Assembly (NCBI GenBank): GCA_030407315.1 | Contig: JALQPE010000086.1 | Location: 1 to 64,000, forward strand | Direction: 5' to 3' | Source: Asparagopsis taxiformis | Lineage: Eukaryota > Rhodophyta > Florideophyceae > Bonnemaisoniales > Bonnemaisoniaceae | DNA length: 64,000 nucleotides | In this document: in pieces, positions 13,205 to 37,393 of the stretch | How positions within the stretch are numbered: the first letter of the stretch is position 1 | Layout: each line of letters starts with the position of its first letter | Made by a program: the position numbers and the translations under genes | Notes under the pieces: model-generated | What the model was told of the DNA's origin: nothing | Databases searched by the model: none | The model's input: the letters and a program-made list of their open reading frames with translations, nothing else

Positions 13205-13243
13205 GCTTGCGTCACGCTAAGCGCCATCGTCATCGCCTGTCGC

Positions 13244-13354: not shown

Positions 13355-14049
13355 TCTTTTAGCCATTCCTCCCATTCTCTTTTTCTGCGGTTCTTCGTTG
13401 TTCTTCTGCTAACATACTTTTCTGCCTTTCCTACTTTCTGTTTCGTCTTTCTCCAGGGCTACTGTCATTACTACGTTTTCTCACTTCTAATCGAGCTTTT
13501 GGCATACCGTTTCCAGCACTAACCACTGTGTCATCCACTTCTTTCCATCTCTGTGCCAGCAGAAGTTTCTGAGTTCTCTACAATCCGCTTACTCAAGCTC
13601 TGGCTCCACTATCAACGGTATGTTCTCTCGCTTCTAGTCATGCTTCTAGCGTTGATGAAGTTACATTCCTAGCACTAACCATTGATTCATCTATTCTTTT
13701 CCTTCCAGGTGCCAACAGAAATTTCTGGCTTCCCCTCACCTCTCTTTTCATGCCTATATGTATTTGTAGTTACTTTATGTAGAGCTGTGTTTTGCCGTTT
13801 AGTATCTGCCATGGTGGCATAGTTCATAGTTCCGTAGTGCAGTGTACAGATGATCTTCATGTCGTTAAACTTTTGGCGTTAGCTGCCCATTTACCTATTC
13901 CATATCCACTACACCATATCGTAAATCTTGCGTACCCGGCACTGGCTGCAACCTAGTCTAATTCATCGTCCCTATGCCGATTTCCATTCTACCTAGATAT
14001 CGTTTCAGTCAGACCTATCCGTCCTGCAGTTTCTCCGCAAAAGTGCGAT

Positions 14050-14886: not shown

Positions 14887-15060
14887 TTCTGCTTGGTTCC
14901 TGCCTACTGTAAAACAAAATCGCCGTGCTGGTCTCAGCCCATGATTTTTTACATTTTTTTCGATGGGCCTTATCCAAACCTTGGGGATGGGCGTTCCGCT
15001 AAAATATGGTGACTAGTTCTACTGTACAATACGGCATTTTCCATGGAATATTCTCTATTT

Positions 15061-15074
15061 TTGCTTATCCTGTG
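15061..15074 (-). repeat. Terminal inverted repeat, right end of element 1
   Basis: TTGCTTATCCTGTG is the exact reverse complement of the left end of element 2 and is identical to the right end of element 2. Confidence 0.85.
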
Positions 15075-15615
15075 GGAGGCTGTCTTTGGTCAGCATTTCG
15101 TTCAAGGGGTGCGCAATTGCGGCATACCCTTTGATGAATCGTCGAAAGACGCCACAGCTTCAGAGGAAGGATCGCATTTGCGTAGGCGTTTGCGGAAAGA
15201 TCGCGTCAGCGATAGCCGAAGTGGCGTTCTGTGCAACAGCTAGCTTTCCTGGCATCACGACATGCCCCAGGTAGTCGACCTTCTTTTCGAAGAAATGACA
15301 CTTTGTCAACTTCAGGGTGACACCTGCCTCCCGTAGGAGGGAGAGTACTTGGTCCACATGGTGGAGATGTTCGGCCTCGTCCCGAGAGAATACGATCACA
15401 TCGTCTAAGTAAATCAGACAGGTCTGCCAGCGAACGCTGCTAAGAATAATGTCGATGGCACGCTGAAACGTTGCCGGTGCATTCTTCAAGCCAAAAGGCA
15501 ATCGTTTGAAACGATATGTCCCCAAATGGGAGGTGAATGCCGTTTTGTCACGGTCGTCCTGTGCAACAGGGATCTGCCAGTAACCAGAGTTACAATCCAA
15601 TGTGGTGAATACCTG
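15075..15615 (-). pseudogene. Gypsy reverse transcriptase fragment between the two giant elements
   Basis: Minus-strand translation gives VFTTLDCNSGYWQIPVAQDDRDKTAF, then YLDD (LIYLDDVIVFS), then DYLGHVV...; an in-frame TGA (15160-15162) precedes VFRRFIKGYAAIAHPLNEMLTKD (shown in parts across 15075-15160). It is the direct continuation of the frame at 37394-37534, interrupted by element 2. Element 1 interrupts it again at the left side. Confidence 0.9.
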
Positions 15616-15629
15616 CACAGGATAAGCAA
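15616..15629 (+). repeat. Terminal inverted repeat, left end of element 2
   Basis: CACAGGATAAGCAA is preceded by the TG of the target duplication (15614-15615). Confidence 0.88.
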
Positions 15630-18122: not shown

Positions 18123-21100
18123 TCATGCAGTCCTTGGCGGATATCCATCTGCTCTTGCAAAAATAGAGAAGGAACCACCATCCATAAACGAAGGACCTCC
18201 ATGCGTAATTCCTCCATTCGAAGTGCCTTGCTCCACAGAACATAATGAAGGGCTACAATTGTGGAGGAGACCAACCTTACGAACTCCTGAAGTGAGAGGG
18301 AGAAACCAGGAGCCGGAATCGGTGTTCGGAGCAAACGTAGTGGGGGAGGACTTCTGCTTGATAACTGGAAGAACAATAGCGTGTGGTGGAGACAGGTTTT
18401 CCTGGTGAGATTCGTGTATGCAAACGTTTCCCGGTGAAGCAATGTTTCCATCAATAGTCAGGTCAAACACGGTGGTAACAGCCCAAAAAGAAGGCGAACA
18501 GGTCTTCTGTAGAATTCTAGAAGACGGGGAAGCTGAGTAGCAAGCTTGTACTACACAGCCAGAAGCTATTTCTTGTGGCTTTGAAAAGTCCCGAGACGCA
18601 GCAGAGGGCGAAGCTGCAAAGGCAGGGTGGGCAGAACTGAGACGTGCTCCCTTGCATGGTTTTCCACGAAGCATGACTGCATCCGAATTCTGCCCACAGG
18701 AAAAATCCTGCTGTGGTAATGAAGAGGGAACTCCTGTCCACGAGTAATATGAATATGGAGAAGAGAAGAATGGTAAAGAAGACCTATTCAAATGTTCGAG
18801 AAGGGGTTCTTGACAGAGGTCATGCAGCGTACTAGCCGGGAGGTTCTCCATCGATTTACAGTGCTCCCGTCCGAATAGAACACGAAGGAGAAACCGTTTA
18901 GAACGTTGTCTCTTCACAGATGCTGGAGTAGAATTGGAGAAACTTTTCAAAGCAAGATGGAGGCTTCCTTTCCAATAGTTTCCGAGTGCCGCTAACATAG
19001 CATCCAACTGTCTGTCAGCACCTCCGGAATGCTCTAGACCTCGTTTCATTTGTTGATGTGTTGCTTCGAATGATAGCTCAGCTACCTGGCGAGCGTGTCC
19101 GAGCAGAGGAACAGTGTGTTCAAATGCCTCAATGAGACGGTGCAAGTTTGGCTTATTGTCAAGAATCTTCCTTGCCCGGAATCCAGCAGTCTTGTTTTCC
19201 ATCTCAATGTGGTCATTATCATTCGTTACTATACCTTCTGTCTGCATCTTCCGTTTCTTCGAGACCGCTGTGCTCCGCTGTCTGGTAGGAACAGTCTTGA
19301 GCAGGTCATCCACTAGAGTAGCATATTCTTTCGATAGCTGCTGCAGACGACGGAGACCGTTGTGCGCAGAATTCCCTGTAGCTCTCTGTACTGCCTCAGA
19401 ACCGTCGATATGTTTTCGTGGTAGGAAGTATGTAGCTGCAGATATAGAGGACAGGAGACGAACAAGTTCGAGAGACAGATGGCGTTGCTCTTCAGAAGCC
19501 TGGAGTGACCTTGAACCGCTACCTTCGGATGACCTTGTAGTCTGCGATTGGAATTTCAGAGAAGACCTGAAGCAGTGTTCGGCGACGAGGAGAACTGCAA
19601 ATCTGTCCGAGATTCCCATTGTATGAGTTTCACCTGCGTTGAAGTTATATATCTTGTTCTGATTTGCGAGACCCAATACAAGGAGGGCATCCACCATGAA
19701 CCTGTCAGCCAGCCTTCTCACACCATCATTAGGCAAGCTTGAAAAAGCATTGTCCAGAGCATCCTTTGCCAGTCCGTGGAGGAGATGGTCAATTCCAACA
19801 AACGTCGAACGGTATGGGTCCAGAATAGCAGGTACGACAGGGATTCGTAGACTATCGTTTCCGAGTGGTGTCCCGGTTGGAACCAGCCCTTTGGACCTAG
19901 CTTCATGAAGTAGTCTTTCAATGAGATGCAATGGAGTGTCTGTGATATTTTGCACTGTTCTCAAACCCAGATACTTCAAGATGTTTGCAGAACTTTCCGA
20001 TGACTGAACAGCAGCTGTTCGCTCGGATGTGCGAAAGTGTGTATCAGAGCTCGAATGTAAACGGGTGTCGTAGCCAAACTGCGAGTTCTTCCCATATTTC
20101 CCCCCTCTTACAAAGAAACACAAATGGCATGGGCAGTCTGCGTTGTGCCCCATGACATCCAGCACATGAGAACAGGCAGGATAATCCGATACGAAACCAA
20201 TAAAGTCCAGGAAAATTAGACATTCATTGCCGTCTGGATCGACATCACGAAACCCCGACGTACATCCTTGAATAATGTCTCTAGAGATATGTCGAAGGAT
20301 ATGGTTTGTACTAACACCAGGACCTGTGACACCGATAACGCGCACAGCAGAACTGTTCCGGCGACAGTCCAGCGGAAGACCCATTGGGAGCATATAGCAT
20401 CCTCCAGCACTCCCTTTCTTACCAGAGGCTTCATTGAAGTCATCGCAGTATAAAAGAAATGGATAGACGTAGTATGTGGTACCGCAGCTGAGAACCCCAC
20501 GGAGATGTGTAGGATGAAAGGGGCTGGAGCTCGTTCCTGGTTTCAATAACTTGACATTATTGGTTGCACGAGTTCCGCCGACAACTTTGTAATGCCCTTC
20601 AGAGTTGACGAGAAAGAGCAGTTTTTGTGATGGGCCTGGCGGTCCGGGAGAGCTGACGACAAGCCCAATGAAGAACTGTATACCACAATTTTGAGTAGGG
20701 TTACACTCAGGATTGGGTGATAAAACTGTCAGGTGATCACCCGGCCGAGCATATTCCCGGAACGACTCTTTCTGAAGGATGAAGGCGGACCCATATGAAT
20801 GCGGGGAGACCGAAAGCCTGCTATGAAATGCGGCACCAGAGTTAATCCACGAAGAAGATGTGAGAGCTTTGAACGACTCATGGCTGGAAGATAGTGATTC
20901 CTGTTGGAAAAGGGAACTGAGAGTAGGATCTAGAGGAGAGGCGTGCCGCCCTGATATCACTCGAAGCTCCACAATACTACCCCCGAAAGCAGGAACCGGA
21001 GAGCCATCCTTATCCTCCTCTGCCCTCAGAGTATAGTTTTGTCCTTTCAAAGAGTACTCTCTGAATTTTCCTATCCTGGATGTACACACATTACCATGGA

Positions 21101-22169
21101 AACTTAGTAACTCATCCGAGTCGGAAGCATCCAATTGTGTGTTATCACGCCACGCAAGGTCGAATATTTGTGGCGTAGTAATGTCTGCTCGTGCATATTC
21201 GCTTGGTGGAACGATAAGTACAGGTGCTGATTGGCCTGTTGTTGCTCGTTCGACGCGGCTTCTTCGTAGAATTGCGGAGGAAGCTACACGGGCTGCACTG
21301 CGCTCTACGTTTACAGGAAAATAAACGGTTTCTGAACGCAACCATGCATTGTAGAATAGCCACGGTCTCACCTTACGCACTATTGTCGAATAATGAGGCA
21401 GACCTTGCTGAACATGTTTATTCGTTGAGCCTTTTCTCGCGAAATCGAACAAAACACGATCTTCCTGCAAGCTAGCGGCAGTACTTTTTGTGGAGCCTGT
21501 CAGCTTTGCGACAGTATACAGCGTAGTCCATTGTGTCATGTAATTGCGAGCTTTGTCTGGATTGGACGTGTTCATGATAAAGGGAGAAGAGATTAGGAGC
21601 TTCGCTTCTGCCTCCTCCTGTAGTAGCAGGTCTTTATCATTCGACACGGTATCATGTTCTGAGAATACATCATCGGGTTCGTCAGAACTATCGTGATGGA
21701 ATTCAGTAGGAACTGTCGCAACAGCAGAAGCAGGTTCACTCCTAGAAGGAAGTATCATATCACAATGGTCGGGAATGGTGGATAGGTTTTCAACTGCTGG
21801 AGGTGGCAGGGTGTTTCCCTCTTCGCTTTTGGCGTACTCCATAGAGACGGTGGTATCCATGGGTACCAGAGCAATAGAATGCAAGCTATTGTTCCCAGTT
21901 GTAGACGTATCCAGGACAGGAGAGGAAGGGGGTGTTGCATCTGGGAGCCGGTGGTTGATAGCATTTGGATTCTGGGGAATGTTCAAAGTGCTGTCATGGT
22001 CTATTTGTGGGGGAGGAAGAGGGTTTTGAATTGGTCTCCAGCCCATGTGATGGACGGAGAAAGGGTCAGAAACTGTTCTGGTAGTCGAACGCCGAGCCCG
22101 ATTACGACCAGGGTATACATTGTTGTATCGTAGTCGTAGGCCAGTCCTAGACTTTCTCGGTCTTGCCAT
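18123..22169 (-). CDS. CACTA-like DDE transposase, element 2, intact
   Basis: ATG 22169 (MARPRKSRTG) gives about 1,348 aa. In-frame ATGs exist upstream to 22259, but homology to element 1 begins at MARP, so this start is preferred. The N-terminal 200 residues are basic then acidic and low-complexity. The catalytic region shows YPFLLYCDDFNEASG (candidate first Asp near residue 575), FVSDYPAC (second Asp near 660), the zinc-like HNADCPCHLC (near 680) and a helical C-terminal part with AELSFEATHQQMKR (candidate Glu near 1030). This order matches CMC/CACTA-type RNase-H-fold transposases. It should excise and integrate the element by acting on the CACAGGATAAG ends and subterminal repeats. It is the only undamaged large module shared by both elements. 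Confidence 0.85.
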   Translation of the reverse strand: MARPRKSRTGLRLRYNNVYPGRNRARRSTTRTVSDPFSVHHMGWRPIQNPLPPPQIDHDSTLNIPQNPNAINHRLPDATPPSSPVLDTSTTGNNSLHSIALVPMDTTVSMEYAKSEEGNTLPPPAVENLSTIPDHCDMILPSRSEPASAVATVPTEFHHDSSDEPDDVFSEHDTVSNDKDLLLQEEAEAKLLISSPFIMNTSNPDKARNYMTQWTTLYTVAKLTGSTKSTAASLQEDRVLFDFARKGSTNKHVQQGLPHYSTIVRKVRPWLFYNAWLRSETVYFPVNVERSAARVASSAILRRSRVERATTGQSAPVLIVPPSEYARADITTPQIFDLAWRDNTQLDASDSDELLSFHGNVCTSRIGKFREYSLKGQNYTLRAEEDKDGSPVPAFGGSIVELRVISGRHASPLDPTLSSLFQQESLSSSHESFKALTSSSWINSGAAFHSRLSVSPHSYGSAFILQKESFREYARPGDHLTVLSPNPECNPTQNCGIQFFIGLVVSSPGPPGPSQKLLFLVNSEGHYKVVGGTRATNNVKLLKPGTSSSPFHPTHLRGVLSCGTTYYVYPFLLYCDDFNEASGKKGSAGGCYMLPMGLPLDCRRNSSAVRVIGVTGPGVSTNHILRHISRDIIQGCTSGFRDVDPDGNECLIFLDFIGFVSDYPACSHVLDVMGHNADCPCHLCFFVRGGKYGKNSQFGYDTRLHSSSDTHFRTSERTAAVQSSESSANILKYLGLRTVQNITDTPLHLIERLLHEARSKGLVPTGTPLGNDSLRIPVVPAILDPYRSTFVGIDHLLHGLAKDALDNAFSSLPNDGVRRLADRFMVDALLVLGLANQNKIYNFNAGETHTMGISDRFAVLLVAEHCFRSSLKFQSQTTRSSEGSGSRSLQASEEQRHLSLELVRLLSSISAATYFLPRKHIDGSEAVQRATGNSAHNGLRRLQQLSKEYATLVDDLLKTVPTRQRSTAVSKKRKMQTEGIVTNDNDHIEMENKTAGFRARKILDNKPNLHRLIEAFEHTVPLLGHARQVAELSFEATHQQMKRGLEHSGGADRQLDAMLAALGNYWKGSLHLALKSFSNSTPASVKRQRSKRFLLRVLFGREHCKSMENLPASTLHDLCQEPLLEHLNRSSLPFFSSPYSYYSWTGVPSSLPQQDFSCGQNSDAVMLRGKPCKGARLSSAHPAFAASPSAASRDFSKPQEIASGCVVQACYSASPSSRILQKTCSPSFWAVTTVFDLTIDGNIASPGNVCIHESHQENLSPPHAIVLPVIKQKSSPTTFAPNTDSGSWFLPLTSGVRKVGLLHNCSPSLCSVEQGTSNGGITHGGPSFMDGGSFSIFARADGYPPRTA

Positions 22170-22392
22170 GTCTCGATGACAGACAATATGCAGGCTCTGA
22201 TATGTGTGTGAGGGACCGCGTGTAGGCCTTGCTGTAGTGAGCATAGAAACGAAACACACAGATGTAAAGCTGTAGAAAGGGAGAACATGAATAAGTCGAC
22301 CGTTACAGTCTAATAGTTTAACTATGACCTTGCTCAGTTGAACATACGACTATACTACCCATAAACAGAAATCATTCATGGAACGGGAGATG

Positions 22393-22516
22393 TTGAAATT
22401 TGATAATTTTTTTCGCTCCGAAATTACTGCAGTAAAAAGTGATCTAGGTTGGTGCACTTTGCTAGATCGCTTTTTACTGCAGTAATTTCGGAGCGAAAAA
22501 AATTACCAAATTTTAG
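22393..22516. repeat. Hairpin H9
   Basis: Full-length member with outer arm TTTTTTTCGCTCCGAAATT, ACTGCAGT and GTGATCTAG/CTAGATCGC. It shares its arm type with H10, which bounds the other side of the ParB cassette. 22517-22739 shows no gene. Confidence 0.85.
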
Positions 22517-22739
22517 GACCTCAACGCCAGGGGTCCAGCGCCCTTCGCGACTTGCGGAGGCACACTGGTTGCAACTAGTATACTACCATTCTTTACCTTG
22601 CCATGCACGAGAAGGGGAGAGGGCAGAGGACTATCAACGGAAGGAGATTCTGACAAACTACAAGTAGACTATAGGAATGTGGGAGAACATGGAAACAAGA
22701 GAAATATCAGTTTAGAGCATGTTATAGTTAATATGCTAT

Positions 22740-23921
22740 CTATTCAACTGTAATATACTCTTCGCTACTACTTTCCTCTTCCTTATCACTATCCGACACG
22801 TAGTCGTGATCGAAATCGTAGGGCTCCGGCAGAGCATTGGGGTCGTCACCCAGCCCTGGCGCGTAAACTAGGTCGTTGACGAGCTCGGAGGAGACACGCG
22901 CAGCCATTGTGTGGACCCGAATATGGTGACCATACGGCATTCCAGTGTTGGAAAGCCTGGTCTTCACGAAATCGTGGTCCTGCCATCCTGGACCTGCATG
23001 TTCCAAGTCTCCACGAGAGACAAAAACAGAGAACGGAGGTATCCAGACCAACTTGGGAACGAGGTGGGGCCAGACGTCCAGGAAGGCCTTGCGTGGGGAG
23101 TTGAGGAAGGTATGGCTGCGAGGTCGTACCAGAATCGGGGAACCCACTGCACCAGTTGCAATGAATGCATAGTCAGGATCTGGTGCAGGTTTACCGTAGT
23201 ATCGGTTGGGTTCCCCTGGCGGTGGACCGGGGTATGTGAAGTCCAGATGAGGTATCTGACGATCACAGCCCGACCCTGTGAGCAGCATCCGAAGACCTGT
23301 TCTACCGAACCTGAGCTTGGAGCCTTCCTTGAATCCCTTCAATGACGAAACGGAATCTTCTAAGTGGAGCTTTTCTGCTATAATAGCGAGCAGAACATCC
23401 ACAGAGACCTTATCGTGAGCTATTGGACCAGACGCAAGCGTGTCCAGGTCTTCGACAACGGCCTTGCAGGGGGTCATGTACCGCTGCCGAGACGGCCCCC
23501 CTTCTGCATCCTTACCTCAAGAACCGGAATTCAGAATCGAAATCCACGCACCTTCCTCGTCTTCCGAGAACTTCTTCGCAAAGGCTGCCAGAAGGTCGTG
23601 GATACTAGACCGCACTTCCTTAGCTCCTAGTATGTTCTCCAGGACAACATATCCATCAGAATCAATACTAGCCCTTGCCCGCTCGAAATACACAGCCCTC
23701 TCGATGGACGAAGAACCAGCCATGGAGTCAATATCCTCCCTCAGTTCCTCCACCTCCCCTTCCGTCAAGTAGAACCCAGAGCGGTGTTCAGGATGAAGTA
23801 GGCTCGAAACTGAACGGACGAACGATTCAGCTTCGGCCACGGAAGTATTCTCGAGGAGGTGGGGAGGTGGACTCGGCTGTTCGTCCTCGTACCGGTGGAC
23901 CAGAAACCCCTTCGAAGTCAC
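22740..23921 (-). pseudogene. 2OG-Fe(II) dioxygenase, element 2 copy, in-frame stop
   Basis: Homologous throughout to 3510-4685, and conserves HxD (IPHLDF), the distal His (GDLEHAGPGW) and the Arg (HHIRVHT). A TGA at 23517-23519 interrupts the frame after NSGS; reading resumes in the same phase. The upstream open frame (GEGEEEEETPTKSK) connects towards the zinc module. The break lies before the catalytic core, so read-through or a downstream start could still give a core domain, but it is most simply a decaying copy. Confidence 0.75.
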
Positions 23922-24724
23922 CTTCGATTTCGTGGGGGTTTCTTCCTCCTCCTCACCCTCACCTTCATTGTCACGCTCCTTCTCACCCGAAGACGGGGTT
24001 GACCAGGAAGCGGAAGGGAGGGAGGAGGGGAAGAAGTGCTGCCAAGAGCGATGAGCTGCTCTGCAACGGCAGCACTTCTGGTCTTCGACCGAGTAACACG
24101 GGCCGGAAGCGGACTAAAGGTATCGTCCCTTTTCCTCTCTTCCCCTCGGCGGGTACTCTTGGAGGGCTTCTTGACCTTGCCCAGAGATATGGGAGTCTTC
24201 TCTCCTACGGTGCTCCTCTTGTCCTTGACACCCGCTTCACCCTTGTCCTGTTCCACCGACTCGGTCGTTGAGCCTCCTTTGCGAAAAGGATTGAACTCAT
24301 CCCCATCCCACGCTTCTTGTAACGTGACCCCTGCAGGAGGGGTCCAAGAAGGGGGGTCATTGGGTTGACGACCATCATAGCACCGACGGGAGCAGACGAA
24401 GACCATGTCTCGCTCACCTTGATTCAGGTACTTGATGGGGATGAGATGGTGGACGCGGGGATAGTCGCACAGGTTGTGAACTGGCTTAGAGTTGCACGCT
24501 GTGCATTTGTGCACAGCGGCAGAGCCAGGAAAGCGACAGTGCGGTCCAAGAGAGCAAGGGAAGGGGCGTGGAGTAGTTTCGTCGGCCGGAATGCGAATGG
24601 CACGCGAAACGGGATACTCCGCACCACCCCCCAGCGGTTCAGAGACTTCCGCAGTTTCGGGGTTCTGCTGTTCCCCCATAGGAGTGGGGGGAACTGGAGC
24701 AGGGGAGGGTGGTGACACAGCCAT
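23918..24724 (-). CDS. Cys/His zinc-binding (PHD-like) module, element 2 cargo
   Basis: ATG 24724 (MAVSPPSPAP). Conserves CSLGPHC, CTAC, HNLC and VCSRRC, as in element 1. A basic segment (ARVTRSKTRSAAVAEQLIALGS) follows. The last part is out of frame relative to the conserved acidic SSGEKERDNEGEG stretch, showing a one-base break near 24010. The N-terminal part overlaps the ParB frame. It is likely the middle of a ParB-zinc-dioxygenase polypeptide; a chromatin- or DNA-reading role is inferred from the finger type only. Confidence 0.6.
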   Translation of the reverse strand: MAVSPPSPAPVPPTPMGEQQNPETAEVSEPLGGGAEYPVSRAIRIPADETTPRPFPCSLGPHCRFPGSAAVHKCTACNSKPVHNLCDYPRVHHLIPIKYLNQGERDMVFVCSRRCYDGRQPNDPPSWTPPAGVTLQEAWDGDEFNPFRKGGSTTESVEQDKGEAGVKDKRSTVGEKTPISLGKVKKPSKSTRRGEERKRDDTFSPLPARVTRSKTRSAAVAEQLIALGSTSSPPPSLPLPGQPRLRVRRSVTMKVRVRRRKKPPRNRR

Positions 24725-26322
24725 AGGAGACTTGGGGGAGAAGATGGAGCCCGGGCAGCGGAGGGTGTTGAGACAGCCATGGGAGACTGAGCAGGAGAGG
24801 GATGAGGAGAAGGGGTGGTGGGATTGGCAGGAGGGGTGGTAGGATTGGCAGGAGGGGTGGTGGGTTTGGCAGGAGGGGTGGTGGGATTGCCTGAGGACCC
24901 GGGAGCATTCTGCTGCGTTTGTTCAGGTGGAACAGCAGCAGAAATGTCCAAGGGACCAGTTTCATCCTCTGGGAGGGGCTCAGAGGGAAGGGGGACAGGG
25001 AGAGGCTCGATGATAGTTTCTCCGAACTGTGTCGGAGAACGATCCTTGCCAGGCACTTGCGATGGTGATCCTGGCGGAGGGACAGGTGCAGGAGGAGCAC
25101 TCGTTGAAGCCCTCGCACCCTCCTCCATTACCACGTCATTGGCGGGAGTGGTATTCGCAGCAGAGTCCAACGGCTCAGTACGAGGAGGATTCTGTTGCTT
25201 CGGTGCAACATTGAAACGATGCTGGATGACCGAACGGAAATCTTCTATACGAAGATCTTGGTTCTCCGTTCTCTTCGGCACCGGCTCCTCCTCGTACTGA
25301 ACCATACGCTTGAACACGGATTTCCAGGTCGGGATCATTTCCTTTCCATCCGGTTCAAGGTCTTCCAGGTCTGCCAATTGCTCCGTACTGAGGTCAACCA
25401 TGGGTGCTAGTTCACGGATGACCTCGTAGAAATCTCTAACGTAATTGAGATATGTACGGAGCTGGAGACCTGGGATACGTCCAAACGAATGCATCAGCAG
25501 CACAGACCGGTAGTGAAGGCATTTGACCATCAATTCACTAGCACGGTCTTCAGCCTTCGTGAATGCTGTGTCTTTTAGGACCAGAAGGCTGATGCCGACC
25601 TCGTTCTCCTTCCTCCCGGAAGCCATCTTGTAGGCTGCGTACGTGCGAGGCGAACGTCGCATATTCATAGCTACATTGACGATGGACGTCACGGTACTCT
25701 TCCGGAGGATGCCAGAAAAATGACGTTGGAAGAACCAATTAGACAGCTGCGAAGCCGTCATGTTGGCCAGATTCCTATCCCCAGGTTGAGCGTACTTGAG
25801 GTTGCAATTGTATATGCTAATGATAGCATGTATACGATCCCGGATGGTGGTTGGCAAAACAGTGTGAACAAGCTCATTCAACCGCTGACTGAGGTAAAGG
25901 ACATCCTCCATAGTCATTGGCGCACCATCCGGCCTCAAGGCTTCCTGGACAGGAACGTTGTCCACAACGGAAGCTAAACGCTCAACCTGTTCCTCCTTCG
26001 CCCGCACGAGAGCTCCACGACGATGAAGACCGTCCGCTATGTAGTAGCGTGTTCCATCGGGCCCAAATGGTAGATTTACCACAGTCATGGAGCCCACAGA
26101 AGAGGTCTGAAAGCCTTCGAGAACCATCTTCTGGAACAGCACTTCAACATGAGAGACATCAACCTCGCGGGATGTTTCTTCCGTGACATGAATGTCAGCG
26201 ATCGGAAGTTTCGTTTCCCTGAACAGGTAGTTCGAAAGCGAGGTGCCAGTGCGGGACATGGCAGGGATGGTGAGCTCTCGAGCTGCACTGGTGGTCGACA
26301 GAGGGATAGTACGCGGAGGCAT
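24424..26322 (-). CDS. ParB/Srx-superfamily domain protein, element 2 cargo
   Basis: ATG 26322 (MPPRTIPLST). The ParB-like domain spans roughly residues 30-190, with LPIADIHVTEETSREVD, ADGLHRRGALVRAK and a helical segment; it is uninterrupted, unlike the element 1 copy. The linker has PTTPPANPTTPPAN-type repeats. The frame then drifts out of phase with the zinc module near 24740 (C-run), so the last roughly 100 codons are probably not native. Bacterial ParB-fold proteins act in DNA partition, CTP-dependent clamping or nuclease activity, and related domains occur in phage-like and transposon cargo. Here its role is unknown; DNA binding is an inference. Adjacent in the same direction: zinc module and dioxygenase. 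Confidence 0.7.
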   Translation of the reverse strand: MPPRTIPLSTTSAARELTIPAMSRTGTSLSNYLFRETKLPIADIHVTEETSREVDVSHVEVLFQKMVLEGFQTSSVGSMTVVNLPFGPDGTRYYIADGLHRRGALVRAKEEQVERLASVVDNVPVQEALRPDGAPMTMEDVLYLSQRLNELVHTVLPTTIRDRIHAIISIYNCNLKYAQPGDRNLANMTASQLSNWFFQRHFSGILRKSTVTSIVNVAMNMRRSPRTYAAYKMASGRKENEVGISLLVLKDTAFTKAEDRASELMVKCLHYRSVLLMHSFGRIPGLQLRTYLNYVRDFYEVIRELAPMVDLSTEQLADLEDLEPDGKEMIPTWKSVFKRMVQYEEEPVPKRTENQDLRIEDFRSVIQHRFNVAPKQQNPPRTEPLDSAANTTPANDVVMEEGARASTSAPPAPVPPPGSPSQVPGKDRSPTQFGETIIEPLPVPLPSEPLPEDETGPLDISAAVPPEQTQQNAPGSSGNPTTPPAKPTTPPANPTTPPANPTTPSPHPSPAQSPMAVSTPSAARAPSSPPSLLWLCHHPPLLQFPPLLWGNSRTPKLRKSLNRWGVVRSIPFRVPFAFRPTKLLHAPSLALLDRTVAFLALPLCTNAQRATLSQFTTCATIPASTISSPSST

Positions 26323-26542
26323 GTTGTTTTTGCCGAGTGGGTAGCGCGGAAGTGTAGTGAGAAAGAGAGGGGGATAGGAGAATAGAGATGGTTGAGGAGA
26401 GATAGACTGTCGCTTTAGAGAGACAGTGGGAGGGAGAGTGTGGTGGATAGTGCCAGAGAGATTGGCAATGAAGTGGTAGAGAGGATCCCTGAAAGGTTGG
26501 CAGAGAGAGGTAGGTAGAGGTGGAGAGATTGGTGTAGGGAGT

Positions 26543-26575
26543 GAAAGAGAGAAAGAGAGAGAGAGAGAGAGCGGA
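26543..26575. repeat. GA-rich simple repeat
   Basis: A run of GAGAGAGA-type repeats in the leader upstream of the ParB gene. Confidence 0.6.
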
Positions 26576-26827
26576 ACAGTGCGTCTCGTAGGGGGAAGTC
26601 CTCGATCGGGATTGCTTTTCAGGTGCAGAAGAAGCAGAGAGAGTAGCAGATGAGTAGGAGCCGAGAAAGAAGAAGTGGATGGTCGTGTAAGGTATGCACT
26701 TGAAGGTTGTCCAAACAGGACCGTGGGACAGCGCAATATAACAACTAATGCGCATAATATCCGCCGGTTGCGTCCTAATCAATCAGAACTCATATTGAAC
26801 GGTCATGGAGAGAATGGAGGATGGGCA

Positions 26828-26950
26828 TTAAATTTGGTAATTTTTTTCGCTCTGAAATTACTGCAGTAAAAAGTGATCTAGCTTTGTGCACTTAGGTAGA
26901 TCACTTTTTACTGCAGTAATTTCAGAGCGAAAAAAATTTCCAAATTTTAA
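26828..26950. repeat. Hairpin H10
   Basis: Arm TTTTTTTCGCTCTGAAATT, cores ACTGCAGT and GTGATCTA/TAGATCAC. Partner of H9 around the ParB cassette. Confidence 0.85.
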
Positions 26951-27100
26951 GCGCATCTTGAGCTGACCCGTGGCGCCTTTTCGGCGACTGCTCTAGCCCG
27001 CACTAAACGCGACCGTTGCTTCGATGATTTTATTGAGCAAAACAGAATGGCTTACGTTTACTTTCTACAATAAACGGTCTTTGGCGCAGCTTCACTGTGT
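26951..27100 (+). repeat. Inverted repeat flanking spacer, left copy
   Basis: Reverse complement of about 27700-27847 (shared GGCGCC...TTTTCGGCGACTG, CAATAAACGGTCTTTG), with small differences. Confidence 0.75.
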
Positions 27101-27333
27101 CTATCAAGTTGTATGCGTCACTGCCAATGTGCCCATTTCAGCTGGCTCAGAGTAATTCATCGAGTACGGACACGAAATACTGTTCTGTGTAACCAGCACC
27201 CTGTCAGGAGAAATGTTGAGAAGTAAATGTTTTCCCATCTTCCTTTACACCCTGTTCATAGAATTCAAATAAGTGTATGCGAGACAGGATGTAAATCCTT
27301 GCACAGGTCCCCTAAACGACGTAAAATACGAGC
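27100..27333 (+). pseudogene. Inverted duplicate of the SET gene 3' end
   Basis: Plus-strand translation gives YQVVCVTANVPISAGSE, a stop, then FIEYGHEI, matching the end of the SET gene at 28118-28210. The downstream flank (AGGGGACCTGTGCAAGG near 27985-28010) is also duplicated in inverse order. It records a rearrangement around the H11-H12 unit. Confidence 0.8.
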
Positions 27334-27378
27334 GTAAAATTTGGTAATTTCAGAGCCAAAAAAATTACCAAATTTTAC
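27334..27378. repeat. Hairpin H11, minimal form
   Basis: GTAAAATTTGGTAATTTC | AGAGCC and inverse; lacks the CTGCAG/GATC core. Arm type (GGCTCTGAAA) matches H12. Confidence 0.75.
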
Positions 27379-27847
27379 AGTATAGCTTGTGGCGCCTGTG
27401 GCACTTGCCTTGCACATCTCCCCTCATACCGCGGACCAATACCCTCTGTTTCGGGCATCTCAACCATCGGAACGGAAGCCAGCGAGCAATGCAATGTAGT
27501 TGTTCCTCTACTTTTCCATCGCTATATTCACCCGGATGTACATGAACTAATCTAAATGCACCGTATGGTAATGCACGAAGCATGACCACGAATACATGTT
27601 CTGGTCTGTCCCTCCCTTAGTGGAGCTACTTGCGCTTGCGAGCAAACAATCGTGACACCCACAAGGTGTGGTACAGAACCATCATACACAGTCGAGCTGC
27701 GTCAAAGACCGTTTATTGTAGAAAGTAAACGTAAGCCATACCATTTTGCTTAATGACATCATTGAAGCAACGGTCGTGTTGAGTGCAGACTAGAGCTCAG
27801 ACTAGAGCAGTCGCCGAAAAGGCACCACAGGCGCCACAAGCTATACT
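27379..27847. other. Spacer between H11 and H12
   Basis: About 470 bp. Its right part (27700-27847) is the inverted copy of 26951-27100. The rest holds no convincing gene. Confidence 0.5.
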
Positions 27848-27971
27848 GTAAAATTTGGTAATTTTTTTGGCTCTGAAATTACTGCAGTAAAAAGCGATCT
27901 ACCTAAGTGCACAAGCTAGATCGCTTTTTACTGCAGTAATTTCACAGCCAAAAAAATTACCAAATTTTACG
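27848..27971. repeat. Hairpin H12
   Basis: Arm TTTTTTTGGCTCTGAAATT, cores ACTGCAGT and GCGATCTA/TAGATCGC. Lies about 150 bp after the SET gene stop. Confidence 0.85.
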
Positions 27972-28117
27972 CTCGTATTTTACGTCGTTTAGGGGACCTG
28001 TGCAAGGATTTCCCTCCTGGCTCACATACACGTACTTGAACTACAATTCTATGAACAGAGTTTAAAGGAAGATGGGAAAACATTTACTTCTCAACATTTC
28101 TCCAGACAGGGTACTGG

Positions 28118-28622
28118 TTATACGGAAAAGTATTCGTGTCCGTACTCGATGAATAACTCTGAGCCAGCTGAAATGGGCACATTGGCAGTGACGCATACAA
28201 CTTGATAGGTTGATACAGAGGTCTCATCAAGAACTTCTTGTATGGGGGAAGAGAAACTAACATTAGCAGAACGCGACGGACGCTCAGTTCCCTCCGCTGG
28301 GTCCACAAACGTTGGGTCGTTGATTTTCGATGCCGCACAATACTCGAATGGAACAATGAAGATTGGACTTGCAGACGTGGATGGCATCAGACATTTCACA
28401 TTTGCATCCTTAATTTGAACAGCGTACTTCTGGAAACGCTCAATCGAGAAGGAAGTAGGTCCAGTACCGAAAGTCTTCAACTTCGCCTTGTACAAATCCT
28501 TGTAAACCACAGACCCGAAATAGTACCCTACGATATCTCCAGGATCAATATCCACTCTTGCAAACAGACCGTCACCAGCCGAAGGAATCGTTGACGCTGC
28601 GACGTATACATTGTGTGCCATC
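28118..28622 (-). CDS. SET-domain protein methyltransferase, element 2 cargo
   Basis: ATG 28622 (MAHNVYVAAS) begins the domain; the same frame is open upstream to about 28930 and may be fused to the methyltransferase. Motifs in order: STIPSAGDGLFA (cofactor-binding GxG-like turn), GDIVGYYFGSV, then RSANVSF at the position of the usual RxxNHS pseudoknot motif, and GSELFIEYGHEYF matching the C-terminal GEELxxxYG...Y motif. SET proteins methylate lysines, usually on histones, using S-adenosylmethionine. The altered NHxC-like motif (ANVSF) leaves activity uncertain. No pre-SET or post-SET cysteines are seen. It lies directly downstream of the DNA methyltransferase on the same strand. Confidence 0.75.
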
Positions 28623-28806
28623 GCGTCTATTGACAGCAGGGTTTTAATATCCACGGTAGACAACAAACCCAGCAGCGATTGTGGCCACTTATCAATGGGT
28701 TGGTCTGTCAACTCCTTGTGCTGGTCCGGAATGCACCAGATGCCAGTAAGAAAGCTGATGAGGTGGGGCGGAAGTTTGGTTGAAATGGGCACTTTTGAGG
28801 TTGTCT

Positions 28807-31602
28807 TCAATGATGAACTCTCTTCCGAAGTTCCCAGACGAGCAGAAGCCAGCTGCTGTAGGGCAGTCGTGGACTGCTGGGCAAAGTTCCAATAGAGACC
28901 TGGTGGAGAAATGCGACGTTGACTCTAGGAAGAGACAGTTCGTAGCAATCCTTGAACTTCTCACACCCGACAAACCTCCTGTACTGACCATGGTGCATTG
29001 TCAGGCATGCAACAGCAGTGGAGAAAGTTCCAGCAAACATGTCAACAACCAGGTCGCCCTGGTTTGAGAAACGCCCAATGAGCTCTTGCATGAGAGCGAC
29101 GGTCTTCTGCTCGGGGCGCAACGTAACCTTCTTCTTGTCCTTGTCCATATATTTCACCGTCTCCGACGCAGTGATCCGCGGGATGTTGTCGATGACATTT
29201 GTCCAAGCCTTGAATCTAGAAGGTATGTATCCGGCATTTCGGTAATTAACCATCCCCCAGCCTTCTCTCCCCTTGCCGAGCTTGGTGGCATGTACGACCA
29301 ACTCCACCATATTCAACAAACTTGTCGTGATACGATACGGGGGGATGTGAAATGTGTCGGACTCCGAGTACACACAATAGGCTGCGAATCAACGGCAAAC
29401 ATAGGATAGCCGGCAGAGTACTTCACTTTGCGGAGCTCGTAAACCCAATTGTAGAACAGAGCAGCAGATGTGAATATGAGACATGACCACCCTTGCGCGT
29501 CACCTTGGAAATTTCAGCTACCGTGTCTTCGATTTCTTCCTGACGGAGGACATCATAACCAGAGTTTCCTCTGCCGGACATACGCCTAGTATTGTACGGC
29601 GGGTCAGTGAGGACCAACTGAGCACCTTCCCGGATTTGCGGCTTACCAGGATTGTCAACGGCGTCGTAGTTTTTCAGAAGGTCTCGGAAACTACAGTTGA
29701 ATGTATGTAGGAAACATCCTTTCATGTCCTCCAGTTCCGCAGGAATTAACACTTCCTCTTCGACCCGCATGGAGTTCACATCAGCTTCGTTTGGACCGGT
29801 GCTGCTGCTAGCCGGGTTAGCCCCTGAGCTTGCTGCACCGATCGTACTGACCTCTAGACGCCTACGCTTATTCGGGTTCGCGGCCACGGCTTCCGACACC
29901 TGTCGGGTTACCGAAGATTCCCGCACTGGAGAAGCTGTCGTCTCCATTTCTCTGAACAGCTCCTCATTTGGGTCGGGCGTTGTTGATTGCGGCTCTTCTG
30001 TGAGGCTGAACGCTGTGAGCTGCCTTTCCACCATCGCCAGTGCCGGAATAGTCGTGAACCTCCCGGAAACCGGGAAACCGGGGGACGGCTGGAAGCTCTG
30101 TATGAACGGTATATCTTGCGGAGCCGAGACAGATAGGTCGAACAATTTGTCATTGCGACATATTGCCATTAAGTGTTCCCAGAATGACTTTGCACAGAGG
30201 CGCATCTGAGCGTCTTGCAGCAGCGTACGATGGACAGCAGCACTTGAAATGCTTGCCGAGTGTTGCACTCTTCGAACAGCTCCTCTGCCATGCAACAAGG
30301 TCTTCAGCTCTCGAAGCGGTGAAAAGCCCCTATTTTCCGAGTCCAGGACGTGGTACGTAAACAGTCTCTGGTCGTAAAGAAGGTAAGGTTGTAGGAGCTC
30401 TTCTGCACCGCCTGACCCCAAGGATTTTGCCAACTCATCCCATGCTGCCAGAACCTGATGAACCCCATATCCCAGACGCTGTGCCGTAAAAGGACTGTCC
30501 TTTTTGATTAGCGCTGTCAATCTAGCCGCAGACCTGGTTCTTGTCCGTTGTCGTGGGCGCGTTTCTACTCGCAACTTCCAGTCTCGATCCATCTGAATCA
30601 ATCCCATGAGAAATACAACTTTCCGGAAAGACGGGGAATATCTTGGAGTTGCCCAGTTACCATGATCTGTAGCCCTTTCCTGAACGTGTGAAACAAAGAA
30701 TTGACAAGCCAGAGTTTGCCTGGAGTACGCATCTCGTCCAATAGCTGTCCTTTCCTGTGTGTTATGGTTTTGGTATTCATAGAACACTGGACCTGAGGGA
30801 CGAGGACTCTGGGAGGTTTTCGTTGAAATTTCCACACCCCTTGGCTCATCACGCTCATTGATGTACACCGGAATAAAGAACGATACCGACAAATCCTGCA
30901 TCCCACAGCTGGTAAGAAACAGATCCCATACTCTAGTATCAAGCTCTGTATTGCCATCATCACCAGTACTCGTGAAGTTCCGCACTGATTGCACAATGTT
31001 AAACGTGTGGCGGTGGTACGCATATGAAAACCACCTGTCAACGATTACGATGGCTTCTAGAGATGGTAGATTGAATCTGTACAGACTGCCCACAGCCCTT
31101 CGGAACGCTGAGAGTGAACGTTCTTCGAGTGGAACGTTATCTTCGTCCTTCTCTCTATTATGCCAGCAGTCCCGCATGTAAGCTACAATTGACACACTTT
31201 CGTAGAACGGAATTGTCCTTTCGCTCTCCAGAATGTGATACAGAATCAAGGCAAGCGTATGCGGTTTCGTGGAAATAGACTCATAGCACATGCGGAGTAA
31301 ATACCTTGAAGTCTTGGTTCGGGGGCGTGACAATACCTCTTCGCACACGTCCATACCTCCAACCAGGGTAACGTCCCCGTTTTCCGCTATGGTACCGTAC
31401 AGATAGAGAGCATCGAAGTTTAGGTGCGTTCCGCGGGGAATATCAGAGGCAGGAGTGGCAGCCCTTCAATCGCTGGAATTGAAACAACGCGCGCCGGATC
31501 CACCCAGAGAATTGTTCCGTCTCCGTACAAATCATGCGGTTCTGTTGGTCCATTTTCGCTGCGTGTTACGACGAGCCCATGTCGCCGTCGTACTTCCGCC
31601 AT
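28807..31602 (-). pseudogene. Beta-class DNA methyltransferase, element 2 copy, several frame breaks
   Basis: ATG 31602 (MAEVRRRHGL). A break near 31465 precedes MDVCEEVLS; the N-terminal region of about 550 residues is conserved with element 1 but unassigned. Catalytic motif LVLTDPPYNT lies at 29588-29617. A one-base deletion near 29478 and another break near 29375 separate it from the C-terminal half: RPEQKTVALMQELIG, GDLVVDMFAGTFSTA (29020-29050) and RRFVGCEKF. The order DPPY before FxG is the beta class, which methylates adenine N6 or cytosine N4 in DNA. A further phase change near 28910 leads into the frame that continues to the SET domain, suggesting an ancestral DNA-methyltransferase/SET fusion. 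Whether the breaks are decay or indel errors cannot be told here. Confidence 0.78.
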
Positions 31603-31958
31603 TACTTGTGAGGTGAAGAGAAAAGGGAGAGCAGGGAGAATGGAAAAAGATGAGTGGGGAAAGTTTTCGACGATCAAAGGGCGGACTGGAAGTCCACGCC
31701 CTCCAAAGTCCACGCGGCGCCAATAAATTCGAAATCGGAAATTCTGGAACCGACACGCCGCCGATATCTCGCGAGGGGACGTGAGGATGGCGACAGAAGC
31801 CAGAGTTGTATTGCAGGGATTAGAGTAGGGGTTTGTACTAGTTTGGAAGGGGTGCGTAAGTCGCTTGCACTCTGTGCCAGTAAACTAACTTCAACGAGCG
31901 CGAATGGCAAGGAGATAGTAGAGAAATAATAGTAGCAAGACTCGTTCTCGATTCACAA
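31603..31958. other. Leader of the methyltransferase/SET cassette
   Basis: About 350 bp, no gene seen. Presumed promoter of the minus-strand cassette. Confidence 0.35.
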
Positions 31959-32000: not shown

Positions 32001-32540
32001 AGCACCGCTCTAATCGTTCATGCTTTATTCCAGAACTAACCAACTGAAACGTCTGACTAGTTTATGGAACGATAATCATCAGATTCTTCTTTTACGAATA
32101 AATCTTGCTGGGAATTCCTAGTTTTGGATATCGATCGTTAAACTAGTCTAGACTTTTAACTAACTTCGCGGACGTCCTACGATACATTCCAGCGCATGAT
32201 GATGGCGTCGTACTGCTGTTCAGCATGCTGACAAGTGCACTAGTGTGTAAAATTGCGCAATGTTATACATGTGTGCTGCAGAGTAAGGGGGCTATCACTT
32301 GCTCTGCTTATTGCACTCTGCGCATATTGGAATGCACAGAGCAAAAAAGTTAGCTTTGCTGTCGTTAACATTGCGGGGCACCAATGTGCTCTGCTACGTA
32401 CAAATTCCCGGTCGTGTATTACCAAAGTATACGGCCGAAAAGCTCACCGAGTTTCCCAGTGCCGCACCTTCACAGTCTCTGAGCAGAATAAGCGGTGGTA
32501 AAATACTAGATCATGTATTGTTGGCCGTCATGGTTTGTAG
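32001..32540. other. Spacer between H13 and H14
   Basis: 540 bp. Short open frames only; no supported gene. Confidence 0.4.
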
Positions 32541-32668
32541 AGTTGAAATTTGGTAATATTTACGGTCTGAAATTACTGCAGTAAAAAGCGATCTAGCAAA
32601 GTGCACAATGGTAGATCGCTTTTTACTGCAGCAATTTCAGACCATAAAAATTACCAAATTTCAACTCT
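32541..32668. repeat. Hairpin H14
   Basis: AGAGTTGAAATTTGGTAAT ... inverse, arm ACGGTCTGAAATT, cores ACTGCAGT (right arm ACTGCAGC) and GCGATCTAG/TAGATCGC. Separates the methylation cassette from the convergent gene pair. Confidence 0.85.
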
Positions 32669-32893
32669 AGCCTACATTGCTGGTTTCACTGCTTCTCAGT
32701 ATGCCGAGGACCGTTACAGCCCTCATATTTCGTAACGGCACTACCATTGCACTTGTCCGTTACATGATTGGTCTGCTTACGACAGACATTTCCCTCGAGT
32801 CTTTCTATTTATCTTTCTCGTTGGATAATCAATTTGCTCGTGCACCTCAATTCTCCTCTCCCGGACGTGGAACATCCCATCATTTGAGCTGAA

Positions 32894-34576
32894 ATGCGAG
32901 ATGAATTATCATTGTCAAGGTTTGCAAAGTTTGAGGAACAGTTTGCATCCCTCGAACAGTATATGCGCGACTCCCTTTCGTCCATTGAAATGGAGCTTGC
33001 TTGCATTCGGTACATGACCTCGGCTGCTGCAGGGACAAACACTGTACCTTCAGTAGTTCTCGAGGAGAGATCAAGAAAATCAGGTCAAATTACCACTCTA
33101 GTGTCCTCTTTGTTCAACAATAGGCATGTGACATCTAGATTCGTCGCTTTCAGAACCGTTGCAGAGCTTACCAAAACTTCAGTGGATCCAAGTTTGCTCA
33201 GGAACTTGAATGCAAGGTCTGAAGAAACCCCGCAAGAGAAGTCCTGCACAACATTGCTACTTGCTGCATTGTCGTTTTCGCAGACTTCCAGTTCTAATCC
33301 AGAGGTAAGACAATCCAAGAAATCTCTAATTGGCACGGCGGTTGGGAAACGGCATATATTCTTAAAACGCTCTATTGTCGGAACAGCATTTATTTCGATG
33401 GCGAATGACAGAATTGTACGATGGAAGGACTCGGCCACCAGGAATGCCGGTATCCTGGACCCCGGCGAAGAAGAGGACTTGAACAGCAATACTATCTCAA
33501 GAGATTATGCACTACGCAATGCAACAATTGTGCCCATCGATAAACCATCTTGGCTGCACATTTCGCAGCGCGCTCTTTTCCATGCCATGGATATTTCGAT
33601 GCCCACGGAGGCGGAACGCAACATAGAACAGTCCACGAGTTTGCAGGTTGGATCTTCAAAGCGTCGGCGACTGTCTGGTTCGAAAGGAGAAGCACGCCGT
33701 GCATCTACATCCTCCTCTTCGTCTTCCGCTATGCCCAACCTGTCACCGTCAGATATACAGTCCATTCCGATCATTACCTCTGCTCTACGGCAGCTCACCC
33801 AGTTCTTCAACAGTTCCCGTAAGCAAATGAAAATGGAATTGGTCAAGCAAGCATTCTTCCTCATCCACCGAGATATGAAGGCAAATATTGCTGTTCCACT
33901 TGACTCTGATGTGTCCACGTCGGACATGTGTCCACTTGACTCAATTCCGACAACTTTGAAAGCTTACGGAACAGGAGAAGACGCTCTAGAAGTGTATTCA
34001 AGAAATGATTCTACCTTCTCAAATTTCATTCTCAGTCGTCCCGAGCTTCACGTTCAGGTTACTTACAAAGTTCAGGTAAGCGGCGGTATCGTTAATGGAA
34101 ACATTACAACTGCGCAGAATCCAGTGGAGAAATTGGCTGTATGTTCATTCTCTTTTCTTACTTTAGCTATGATATTGTTATGCAGTTTCTGCCAATGCAC
34201 ACAACTGGAGATGCTTTGTCATGAGCCCCATGCCATTCAAGCTTGTTATCGGATAGCAATATGTCTCCAAGGTTTATTCAATGCGGCCCTCAGCAAGTTA
34301 CCTACACCTCAGTTCGGGAAAGATGGATTCCCTTTGCGAGTTTCATGGGGACATCTAGAGCTGCGGGACTACCTCATGGGAGGTGATTGCCTGTTCGGAA
34401 TCATCCGAAAGAAGAGAAATCTCACTGCTGAAGAATACGAGTCTGTACGTTTCGATTCAAGCATCGTACAAACCGAACCTTCCTTTGAAAACTCGGCAGA
34501 CAGGCGCATTTCCAATCCTGATTGCGTCCCTCTACAGGAGGATGACGAGCTTGGTATTTCTCTAATTGATGTGTAG
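32894..34576 (+). CDS. Unknown element 2 gene A, 560 aa
   Basis: An uninterrupted frame from ATG 32894 (MRDELSLSRF) to the TAG at 34574-34576. Not recognised. Visible features: an N-terminal amphipathic helix (FAKFEEQFASLEQYMRDSL), a nuclear-signal-like basic block (SSKRRRLSGSKGEARR) followed by a Ser run, and an acidic C-terminus. A hydrophobic stretch (residues about 415-435, VCSFSFLTLAMILLCSF) coincides with intron-like signals (GTATGT at 34139, CTTACTTTAG at 34166, GCAG at 34185), but no donor/acceptor pair keeps the frame. ATTAAA near 34676 could be its poly(A) signal. It is the only plus-strand gene of element 2, convergent with the next gene at a distance of 132 bp. It could be an accessory DNA-binding transposition protein; that is a guess from position. 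Confidence 0.65.
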   Translation: MRDELSLSRFAKFEEQFASLEQYMRDSLSSIEMELACIRYMTSAAAGTNTVPSVVLEERSRKSGQITTLVSSLFNNRHVTSRFVAFRTVAELTKTSVDPSLLRNLNARSEETPQEKSCTTLLLAALSFSQTSSSNPEVRQSKKSLIGTAVGKRHIFLKRSIVGTAFISMANDRIVRWKDSATRNAGILDPGEEEDLNSNTISRDYALRNATIVPIDKPSWLHISQRALFHAMDISMPTEAERNIEQSTSLQVGSSKRRRLSGSKGEARRASTSSSSSSAMPNLSPSDIQSIPIITSALRQLTQFFNSSRKQMKMELVKQAFFLIHRDMKANIAVPLDSDVSTSDMCPLDSIPTTLKAYGTGEDALEVYSRNDSTFSNFILSRPELHVQVTYKVQVSGGIVNGNITTAQNPVEKLAVCSFSFLTLAMILLCSFCQCTQLEMLCHEPHAIQACYRIAICLQGLFNAALSKLPTPQFGKDGFPLRVSWGHLELRDYLMGGDCLFGIIRKKRNLTAEEYESVRFDSSIVQTEPSFENSADRRISNPDCVPLQEDDELGISLIDV

Positions 34577-36403: not shown

Positions 36404-36523
36404 AGTTCCTCCACGAAATAAAGATACTACAACGCACTATCTGCAATTTTGTTCAGGACAAGTCTTCGTCAACTTCTTCACCAGATACTACTTCACCCAT
36501 GTCTGTAACGTCCAATTTTTCAT

Positions 36524-37377: not shown

Positions 37378-37391
37378 TTGCTTATCCTGTG
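37378..37391 (-). repeat. Terminal inverted repeat, right end of element 2
   Basis: TTGCTTATCCTGTG is followed by TG (37392-37393), the second copy of the target duplication, and then the upstream part of the Gypsy reverse transcriptase (minus strand). Confidence 0.88.
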
Positions 37392-37393
37392 TG

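Follow-up and report, generated by a model that had tools for sequence, protein, structure and literature searches.

Can a DNA transposon carry its own enzymes for marking DNA and chromatin? This question is raised by a stretch of 64,000 nucleotides from the red alga Asparagopsis taxiformis (contig JALQPE010000086.1, positions 1 to 64,000; the whole stretch is called the window here), in which five modules had been predicted as the cargo of one mobile element. All five are found where the original prediction placed them, on the minus strand at 22740–31602: a SET domain and a DNA methyltransferase, both recognized by Pfam, a 2-oxoglutarate (2OG)-Fe(II)-type dioxygenase with its HxD, H and R residues, a ParB-like domain supported by its predicted fold, and a PHD-like zinc module with Cys and His residues in C4HC3 order. 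That they belong to one mobile element, termed element A, is shown by the element's ends and copies together with a target duplication and an empty site. Beyond what had been predicted, the five modules constitute two fused genes, a methyltransferase-SET gene (28118–31608) and a ParB/PHD-like/dioxygenase gene (22740–26305). The reading favoured here, on which the sequence evidence leaves opinion evenly divided, is that element A is a recently active DNA transposon that would use its own chromatin-marking kit for self-marking or protection from silencing.

Element A moves as one unit

The genome searched comprises 141.5 Mb in 3,156 contigs; coordinates of modules refer to the window, and designations of the type L019 to L046 (loci) and C134 to C1986 (contigs) denote other places in this genome. 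Element A spans positions 15616–37391, corresponding to 21,776 bp here and to about 22.7 kb in the copy on contig C1847 (locus L046). Similarity between copies breaks off sharply at both positions, which are also confirmed by the empty site, and the cargo region lies inside this longer repeat. Both ends carry a perfect terminal inverted repeat of 14 bp, CACAGGATAAGCAA, at 15616–15629 on the plus strand and at 37378–37391 on the minus strand. This repeat has 225 exact matches in the genome versus none for a reversed control.

The element is flanked by a 2-bp target duplication, TG, at 15614–15615 and 37392–37393. A matching dinucleotide flanks five out of six two-ended copies (TG in the window and C1844, TC in C1986 and C1824, TT in C1837), the exception being C1847; the C1824 copy reaches 36 kb owing to an insertion. 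When the window flanks are joined in silico minus one TG, an uninterrupted Ty3-type pol frame results, which is broken if both TG copies are kept. The 100-base joined sequence occurs unchanged at 5 places elsewhere in the genome, and at least 40 places match it at 97% identity or more. Terminal repeats, target duplications, the restored Ty3 frame and the empty sites thus show that element A is mobilized as a whole and duplicates 2 bp of its target, and this combination of inverted repeats, duplication and clean empty site is that of a cut-and-paste DNA transposon. Each of four element A parts used in searches has at least 30–40 near-full-length copies of 95–100% identity (the final matches listed for two of them are shorter), some of which may represent the second haplotype of one locus.

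The transposase-like frame of element A (18123–22349, minus strand, 1408 codons) displays the motifs CDDFN, SDYPAC, CHLC and SFEATH. CDDFN, SDYPAC-CHLC and SFEATH are kept in a paralogue that is 61–75% identical in piecewise comparison; searches with the frame gave no Pfam match at E 10 and no PDB sequence match. The CMCT clade (CACTA/EnSpm and Plavaka) is described as having D, D and E residues, the second D and the E enclosing C(2)C and H(3-4)H (PMC12730594; here and below, statements on cited papers refer to the available part of their text). The frame resembles this signature, but its histidines are spaced H-x7-H rather than H(3-4)H, and no profile matches it. Plavaka elements end in TGT..ACA or CATCA..TGATG and generate a 2–3 bp target duplication (PMC12730594). 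The termini of element A, CACAGG..CCTGTG, do not fit, and Plavaka was rejected, with the 2-bp duplication as the only agreement. Likewise, a kinship with KDZ transposons, which the original prediction had drawn on as precedent, is given up in view of the missing Pfam match of the transposase.

Two fused cargo genes

The methyltransferase-SET gene (28118–31608, minus strand) is frameshifted in the window copy. Its catalytic DPPY motif (29594–29605) lies within an upstream open reading frame (ORF; 29423–31465), followed on the same strand by the C-terminal part of the N6_N4 methyltransferase domain with the FAG motif (28807–29373; PF01555, E 4.6e-11, over cut-off) and by the SET domain (28118–28810; PF00856, E 2.5e-6, over cut-off). 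The position of DPPY ahead of FAG, which binds S-adenosylmethionine, is the order found in beta-class enzymes. PF01555 scores 52.5 bits in protein P0004 (residues 657–878) and 41.3 bits in L046 at a cut-off of 26.7, and PF00856 scores 26.5, 25.9 and 23.6 bits in L046, P0004 and P0005, respectively, at a cut-off of 22.4. Within L046, the C-terminal part of the methyltransferase and the SET domain share one frame of 423 codons, in which both exceed their Pfam cut-offs. P0004 is a complete protein of 1157 residues with both domains, and P0005 (1165 residues, 56% identity to the query) likewise contains both over cut-off. In the window, by comparison, the length over 29201–29700 differs from that in 37 of the 39 other listed copies.

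The DPPY motif and the best NCBIfam and PDB matches are those of adenine-specific enzymes, the best NCBIfam match being PRK11524 (1.2e-8, below its cut-off). The closest solved structures are the methyltransferase DpnA (E 2.5e-6) and, for the SET domain, SETD7 (E 0.003). An adenine-type enzyme could also serve the control of transposition, as Dam methylation times the transposition of IS10. Methylation at the element ends would then time transposase binding or replication-coupled excision, and the oxygenase would reset the mark. The presence of a DPPY methyltransferase in an active element of the cut-and-paste type, with recent copies of high identity, agrees with such a role; set against it, no recognition site was identified, and the SET domain and the PHD-like module would be superfluous. 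Timing of transposition is considered an unlikely explanation of the kit.

The second gene (22740–26305, minus strand) connects a ParB-like domain via a proline-rich linker with the PHD-like module and the dioxygenase. It is interrupted in the window copy, which has a premature stop at 23517–23519 that is not present in the eight other copies read (nine loci). The gene forms a single frame of 1278 codons in the C1847 copy (L046:3101-6937). The same architecture is found in a metagenome protein, P0001 (1167 residues, 55% identity). P0002 (25% identity across 21% of the query, E 4.2e-6) has the motifs of ParB and of the dioxygenase but no zinc module. Taken together, the fusions are intact as single frames in L046, P0001, P0004 and P0005, which speaks for a functional kit. 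Among wider searches, a profile search with query A1 returned only P0001, and A1 found no relative in IMG/VR. Query A5 hit one IMG/VR locus (37% over residues 826–898), and a search of bacterial and archaeal genomes yielded no relative.

The ParB-like domain (about 25315–26280, minus strand) is matched weakly by sequence (PHROG ParB, E 0.068 in L046 and 7.8e-5 in the homologue P0001) and contains a conserved DGxHR motif. In a Foldseek search with the structural model (mean pLDDT, a predicted confidence score, of 61; about 65–88 in the core), the first 40 rows are by title ParB, Noc, KorB, Spo0J or sulfiredoxin, with the exception of 2hwj, an uncharacterised protein. The best E-value is 8.2e-5, and a sulfiredoxin target aligns with a template modelling score of about 0.6. 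By its predicted fold, the region can be assigned to the ParB/sulfiredoxin superfamily. The PHD-like module (approximately 24370–24570, minus strand) was read by eye: eight Cys and His residues in C4HC3 order, with unusual spacing, are kept in element A, in the related element B described below and in P0001, and no Pfam match was obtained.

Within the dioxygenase region (22740–23921, minus strand), HxD, the distal H and R do not vary in alignments with diverged relatives (down to 23% identity), nor in a set of five sequences. Neither L046, P0001, P0002 nor the dioxygenase ORF of element B yields a Pfam match for it up to E 10. Sequence searches of the PDB returned only nitric-oxide synthases at E 1.7 or worse with profile A3, and no match with the dioxygenase segment of P0002. 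The profile searches proposed in the original prediction thus gave a divided result: SET domain and methyltransferase exceed their Pfam cut-offs, while dioxygenase and PHD-like module match no Pfam profile and the ParB match is weak. TET/JBP, named in the original prediction as part of a precedent, was rejected, as Tet_JBP is not among the Pfam matches up to E 10 in the four sequences named; a genome-wide Tet_JBP search gave 0 matches, with the control equally silent. The PE type of TET/JBP has HxE in place of HxD (PMC12730594) and was rejected separately, HxD being present in all five aligned dioxygenases.

The missing Tet_JBP match, the adjoining PHD-like zinc module and the lack of a detected C5-methyltransferase in an exon-by-exon search (see below) would also agree with an oxygenase acting on protein or RNA, the kit then being chiefly a complex for histone modification to which a DNA methyltransferase is attached. 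The fusion to a ParB-like domain and the conserved association with a DNA methyltransferase speak for DNA as the target, and a protein or RNA substrate is considered decidedly improbable.

Element B and further relatives

A second element, element B (1–15074), is cut by the contig start and carries the same terminal repeat at 15061–15074. It contains the N-terminal part of the methyltransferase gene (310–2373, minus strand), to which P0004 is near-identical by eye, a ParB/PHD-like/dioxygenase gene (3510–7045, minus strand) that is split over three frames in the window copy, and a transposase-like frame (8927–12562, plus strand). The SET region lies beyond the contig start; a SET domain of the B type is supplied by P0004. 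The dioxygenase, PHD-like, ParB-like and methyltransferase sequences of B are about 75% identical to those of A at the DNA level and rearranged: the orientation of both cargo genes relative to the transposase is opposite between A and B, and the terminal repeat of B is situated beside the transposase, with the other repeat 6.78–6.85 kb past the methyltransferase in six B copies. Since the same genes occur in B in another order and orientation, the shared gene set has outlived rearrangement. Both elements are represented by about 40 or more copies each among the matches listed, window included. In the window, A and B are arranged head to head with 541 bp (15075–15615) between them, both within the same Ty3-type pol gene. 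Contig C730 displays terminal repeats at the same spacing and may represent the second haplotype or a segmental duplicate.

Ratios of non-synonymous to synonymous substitution (dN/dS) between A and B, with stop codons skipped and frameshifted parts compared piecewise, are 0.107 for ParB, 0.256 for PHD, 0.182 for the dioxygenase, 0.221 for the N-terminal part of the methyltransferase and 0.226 for the transposase. These values exclude chance ORFs, and the sequence comparison shows both multi-domain proteins to be under purifying selection between the A and B lineages. Synonymous divergence (dS) amounts to 0.64–0.99 in the cargo and to 0.088 in the transposase part. The roughly tenfold lower synonymous divergence of the transposase part is a sign of exchange or conversion between elements.

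The same values bear on the view that the cargo travels as a passenger and serves no function for the element. Both A and B are damaged in the window, and P0003, an A-type protein discussed below, lacks the SET domain, as would be expected of a passenger; against it stand the purifying selection seen in each of the four cargo stretches tested, the intact frames in L046, P0001, P0004 and P0005, and the recurrence of the genes in B and in diverged lineages. Passenger DNA was rejected on the dN/dS evidence and is regarded as very improbable.

The linkage of the two genes is also found in other copies. The methyltransferase is located on the same strand, 6.06–6.42 kb from the dioxygenase, for 22 of 40 listed dioxygenase matches (two further matches of 41 bases were left out), in support of a common cargo, and the other 18 have no methyltransferase partner among the matches listed, some of their contigs being short. 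In addition, 13 links between transposase and dioxygenase and 20 between methyltransferase and right end are present among the matches listed; nine contigs are common to the transposase-dioxygenase and dioxygenase-methyltransferase lists (hand count). Intact relatives without the modules would have spoken against the original prediction. On this point, B, P0001, P0004 and P0005 keep them, a result qualified by the 18 unpaired dioxygenase matches.

Diverged relatives (25–33% identity) were found by translated search of flanking sequences, in loci L019, L020, L025, L026, L042 and L045. L019 contains a DPPY methyltransferase with a related N-terminal region and a SET-like start at its C-terminus; the SET call is a 31% match to P0004 (E 4e-9) without a Pfam SET match, in a locus that ends inside SET. 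A methyltransferase of this type is found in L042, and its N-terminal part in L020. In L025, a dioxygenase with HTD..H..R precedes a ParB-like ORF, and in L026 a ParB-like ORF precedes a DPPY methyltransferase. In L045:2-4046, a DPPY methyltransferase stands beside an ORF of 892 codons that matches DUF7869 (E 3.4e-48); this may be a further mobile element. PF01555 is over cut-off in L019, L042, L045 and L026. Genome-wide, 2,605 first-look candidates for PF01555 were obtained, and all 150 that were scored exceed the cut-off, 145 of them without an internal stop; 79 of the 150 share a score of 65.6 bits, as expected of an amplified family. By sequence, repeats that bear methyltransferases seem to be widespread throughout this genome. 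An origin of these numerous methyltransferases from contamination was rejected, several of them sharing contigs with A or B copies (C401, C134, C215). Copies of A are inserted in L025:1-4862 and L026:932-3855, breaking a ParB-side frame and a methyltransferase frame.

This abundance of methyltransferase genes and the insertion of A into other cargo-bearing loci (L025, L026) would fit competition between elements of a restriction-modification type, in which the methyltransferase marks the element's own DNA, ParB acts as nuclease or NTPase on unmarked rivals, and the oxygenase blocks or creates marks. Prokaryotic mobile elements have been reported to encode GmrSD systems and ParB-methylase proteins that nick DNA (PMC5512222), and the ParB ORF of L026, which precedes a DPPY methyltransferase, has a weak GmrSD_N match (E 3.2e-4, below cut-off). 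However, ParB in A and B is fused to PHD and dioxygenase and not to the methyltransferase, the SET and PHD-like modules point to chromatin, and no nuclease domain such as HNH was found; competition of this kind is judged rather improbable.

Predicted function and known counterparts

In the favoured reading, a self-marking or anti-silencing kit, the transposase would cut and paste the element. The methyltransferase-SET protein would be recruited to element DNA and write N6-methyladenine (6mA) or N4-methylcytosine (4mC), and might also methylate a lysine of a histone or of the transposase, thereby linking marks on DNA and protein. The ParB-PHD-dioxygenase fusion could bind or slide on element DNA via ParB, sense the histone state through its zinc module and oxidise a methylated base, either 5-methylcytosine (5mC) of the host or the element's own 6mA. 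As a net effect, copies of the element would stay expressed and transposable despite silencing by the host. Transposon-encoded TET/JBP genes, which have been argued to counter silencing, without experimental proof, offer a precedent (PMC12730594), and the conservation of catalytic residues in the cargo also speaks for this reading.

Several observations weigh against this reading. SET domains usually contain NHS or NHC together with a catalytic Tyr; the SET domain of the cargo has NVS at this position, and the Tyr of EYG is present. P0003, which is 100% identical over 97% of the N-terminal part encoded in the window, ends at 762 residues without SET, hence truncated versions of A exist; none of the copies and proteins read showed a full-length methyltransferase-SET frame of the A type. 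The dioxygenase is named by no profile, and its AlphaFold2 model, built from four sequences, is unusable (mean pLDDT 32). Moreover, PF00145, the profile for C5-methyltransferases, has 0 matches in the genome by an exon-by-exon search in which introns may hide a gene (control positive in 10 of 14 bacterial and archaeal genomes); the same search does find PF01555 in this genome. Since no C5-methyltransferase was detected, 5mC as a substrate is weakened. Finally, C>T singletons in A copies are enriched at CpG (32/14,158 versus 58/58,941 at other sites; odds ratio 2.3, p 4e-4), and observed/expected CpG is 0.83 in A versus 0.96–1.64 in four Ty3 stretches of the window. The base composition and mutations suggest present or past cytosine methylation of A and not its protection. 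The CpG mutation excess and the lack of a detected C5-methyltransferase pull against each other, and both argue against a simple 5mC eraser.

Besides 5mC, CcTet acts on 6mA (PMC11040006). If the dioxygenase likewise acted on 6mA, writer and eraser would form a pair. A further-reaching version, possible though doubtful, is that the elements bear a foreign epigenetic system, with an N6/N4 writer tied to histones through its fusion to SET and a ParB-PHD-2OG protein that reads and erases what the writer sets. Methyltransferases would have been carried to hundreds of loci by dozens of lineages, and the methylome would be written mainly by parasites.

Transposons that have captured one epigenetic enzyme are known; in the present case, a DNA methyltransferase-SET and a dioxygenase-ParB-PHD-like protein are combined in one element, and two lineages have kept these modules despite rearrangement. 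No published element with the same combination was found in the open-licence literature, the scope of the search, which leaves subscription papers and Repbase reports outside. Closest in design are the TET+ DNA transposons of fungi (Kojima 2025, PMC12730594), which also encode a 2OG-Fe(II)-type dioxygenase and for which anti-silencing was proposed. Their enzymes are TET/JBP proteins of the PU, AG and PE types, whereas the dioxygenase of element A has HxD, no Tet_JBP match and a fusion to ParB and a zinc module; in the available text of that paper, ParB is not mentioned and no transposon-borne DNA methyltransferase appears. SET genes occur in the DNA transposons HarbingerS and MuDR of Phytophthora (cited in PMC12730594); in element A, SET is fused to an N6/N4 methyltransferase.

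DNA methyltransferases are likewise carried by DNMT-bearing retrotransposons of dinoflagellates and charophytes, with hundreds of copies in Symbiodinium (de Mendoza 2018, PMC5890265), but these are C5 enzymes in retrotransposons, and SET, ParB and oxygenase go unmentioned in the text available. In giant viruses, Mariner elements combine cut-and-paste transposition with a DNA methyltransferase (Bao and Jurka 2013, PMC3627910). They differ in their Tc/mariner transposase and in the restriction-type endonuclease partner, and ParB and SET domain are absent from the accessible portion of the report. In the large polyvalent proteins of phages and conjugative elements, ParB-like domains are combined with adenine methylase domains (PMC5512222); these are prokaryotic, and 2OG and SET domain receive no mention in the part of the paper at hand. 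A bacterial-type N6/N4 methyltransferase fused to a chromatin domain also exists in a eukaryote, the N4CMT of bdelloid rotifers (PMC8885841). This is a chromodomain host protein and not transposon cargo, and it deposits 4mC at transposons and is tied to silencing. Element A makes it directly testable whether transposons write their own epigenetic state and offers putative new writer and eraser fusions to biochemistry. It also suggests that certain mobile elements are equipped with machinery of their own for the control of chemical marks on DNA and chromatin.

Two further frames of element A lie to the right of the cargo. A frame of 562 codons (32888–34576, plus strand) is stop-free in 7 of 8 A loci compared, and one of 575 codons (34709–36436, minus strand) in 10 of 11, in some of them in pieces. 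The latter starts by eye with a Tudor- or Agenet-like stretch, for which there is no Pfam match. An Rfam search of the window gave 0 matches. One Ty3-type element presumably has a chromodomain-like C-terminal end. Mutually related palindromic repeats of about 120–140 bp are present in both A and B (2613–2731, 7498–7620, 22387–22522, 26820–26957, 27848–27970 and 32538–32669) and may be small non-autonomous elements.

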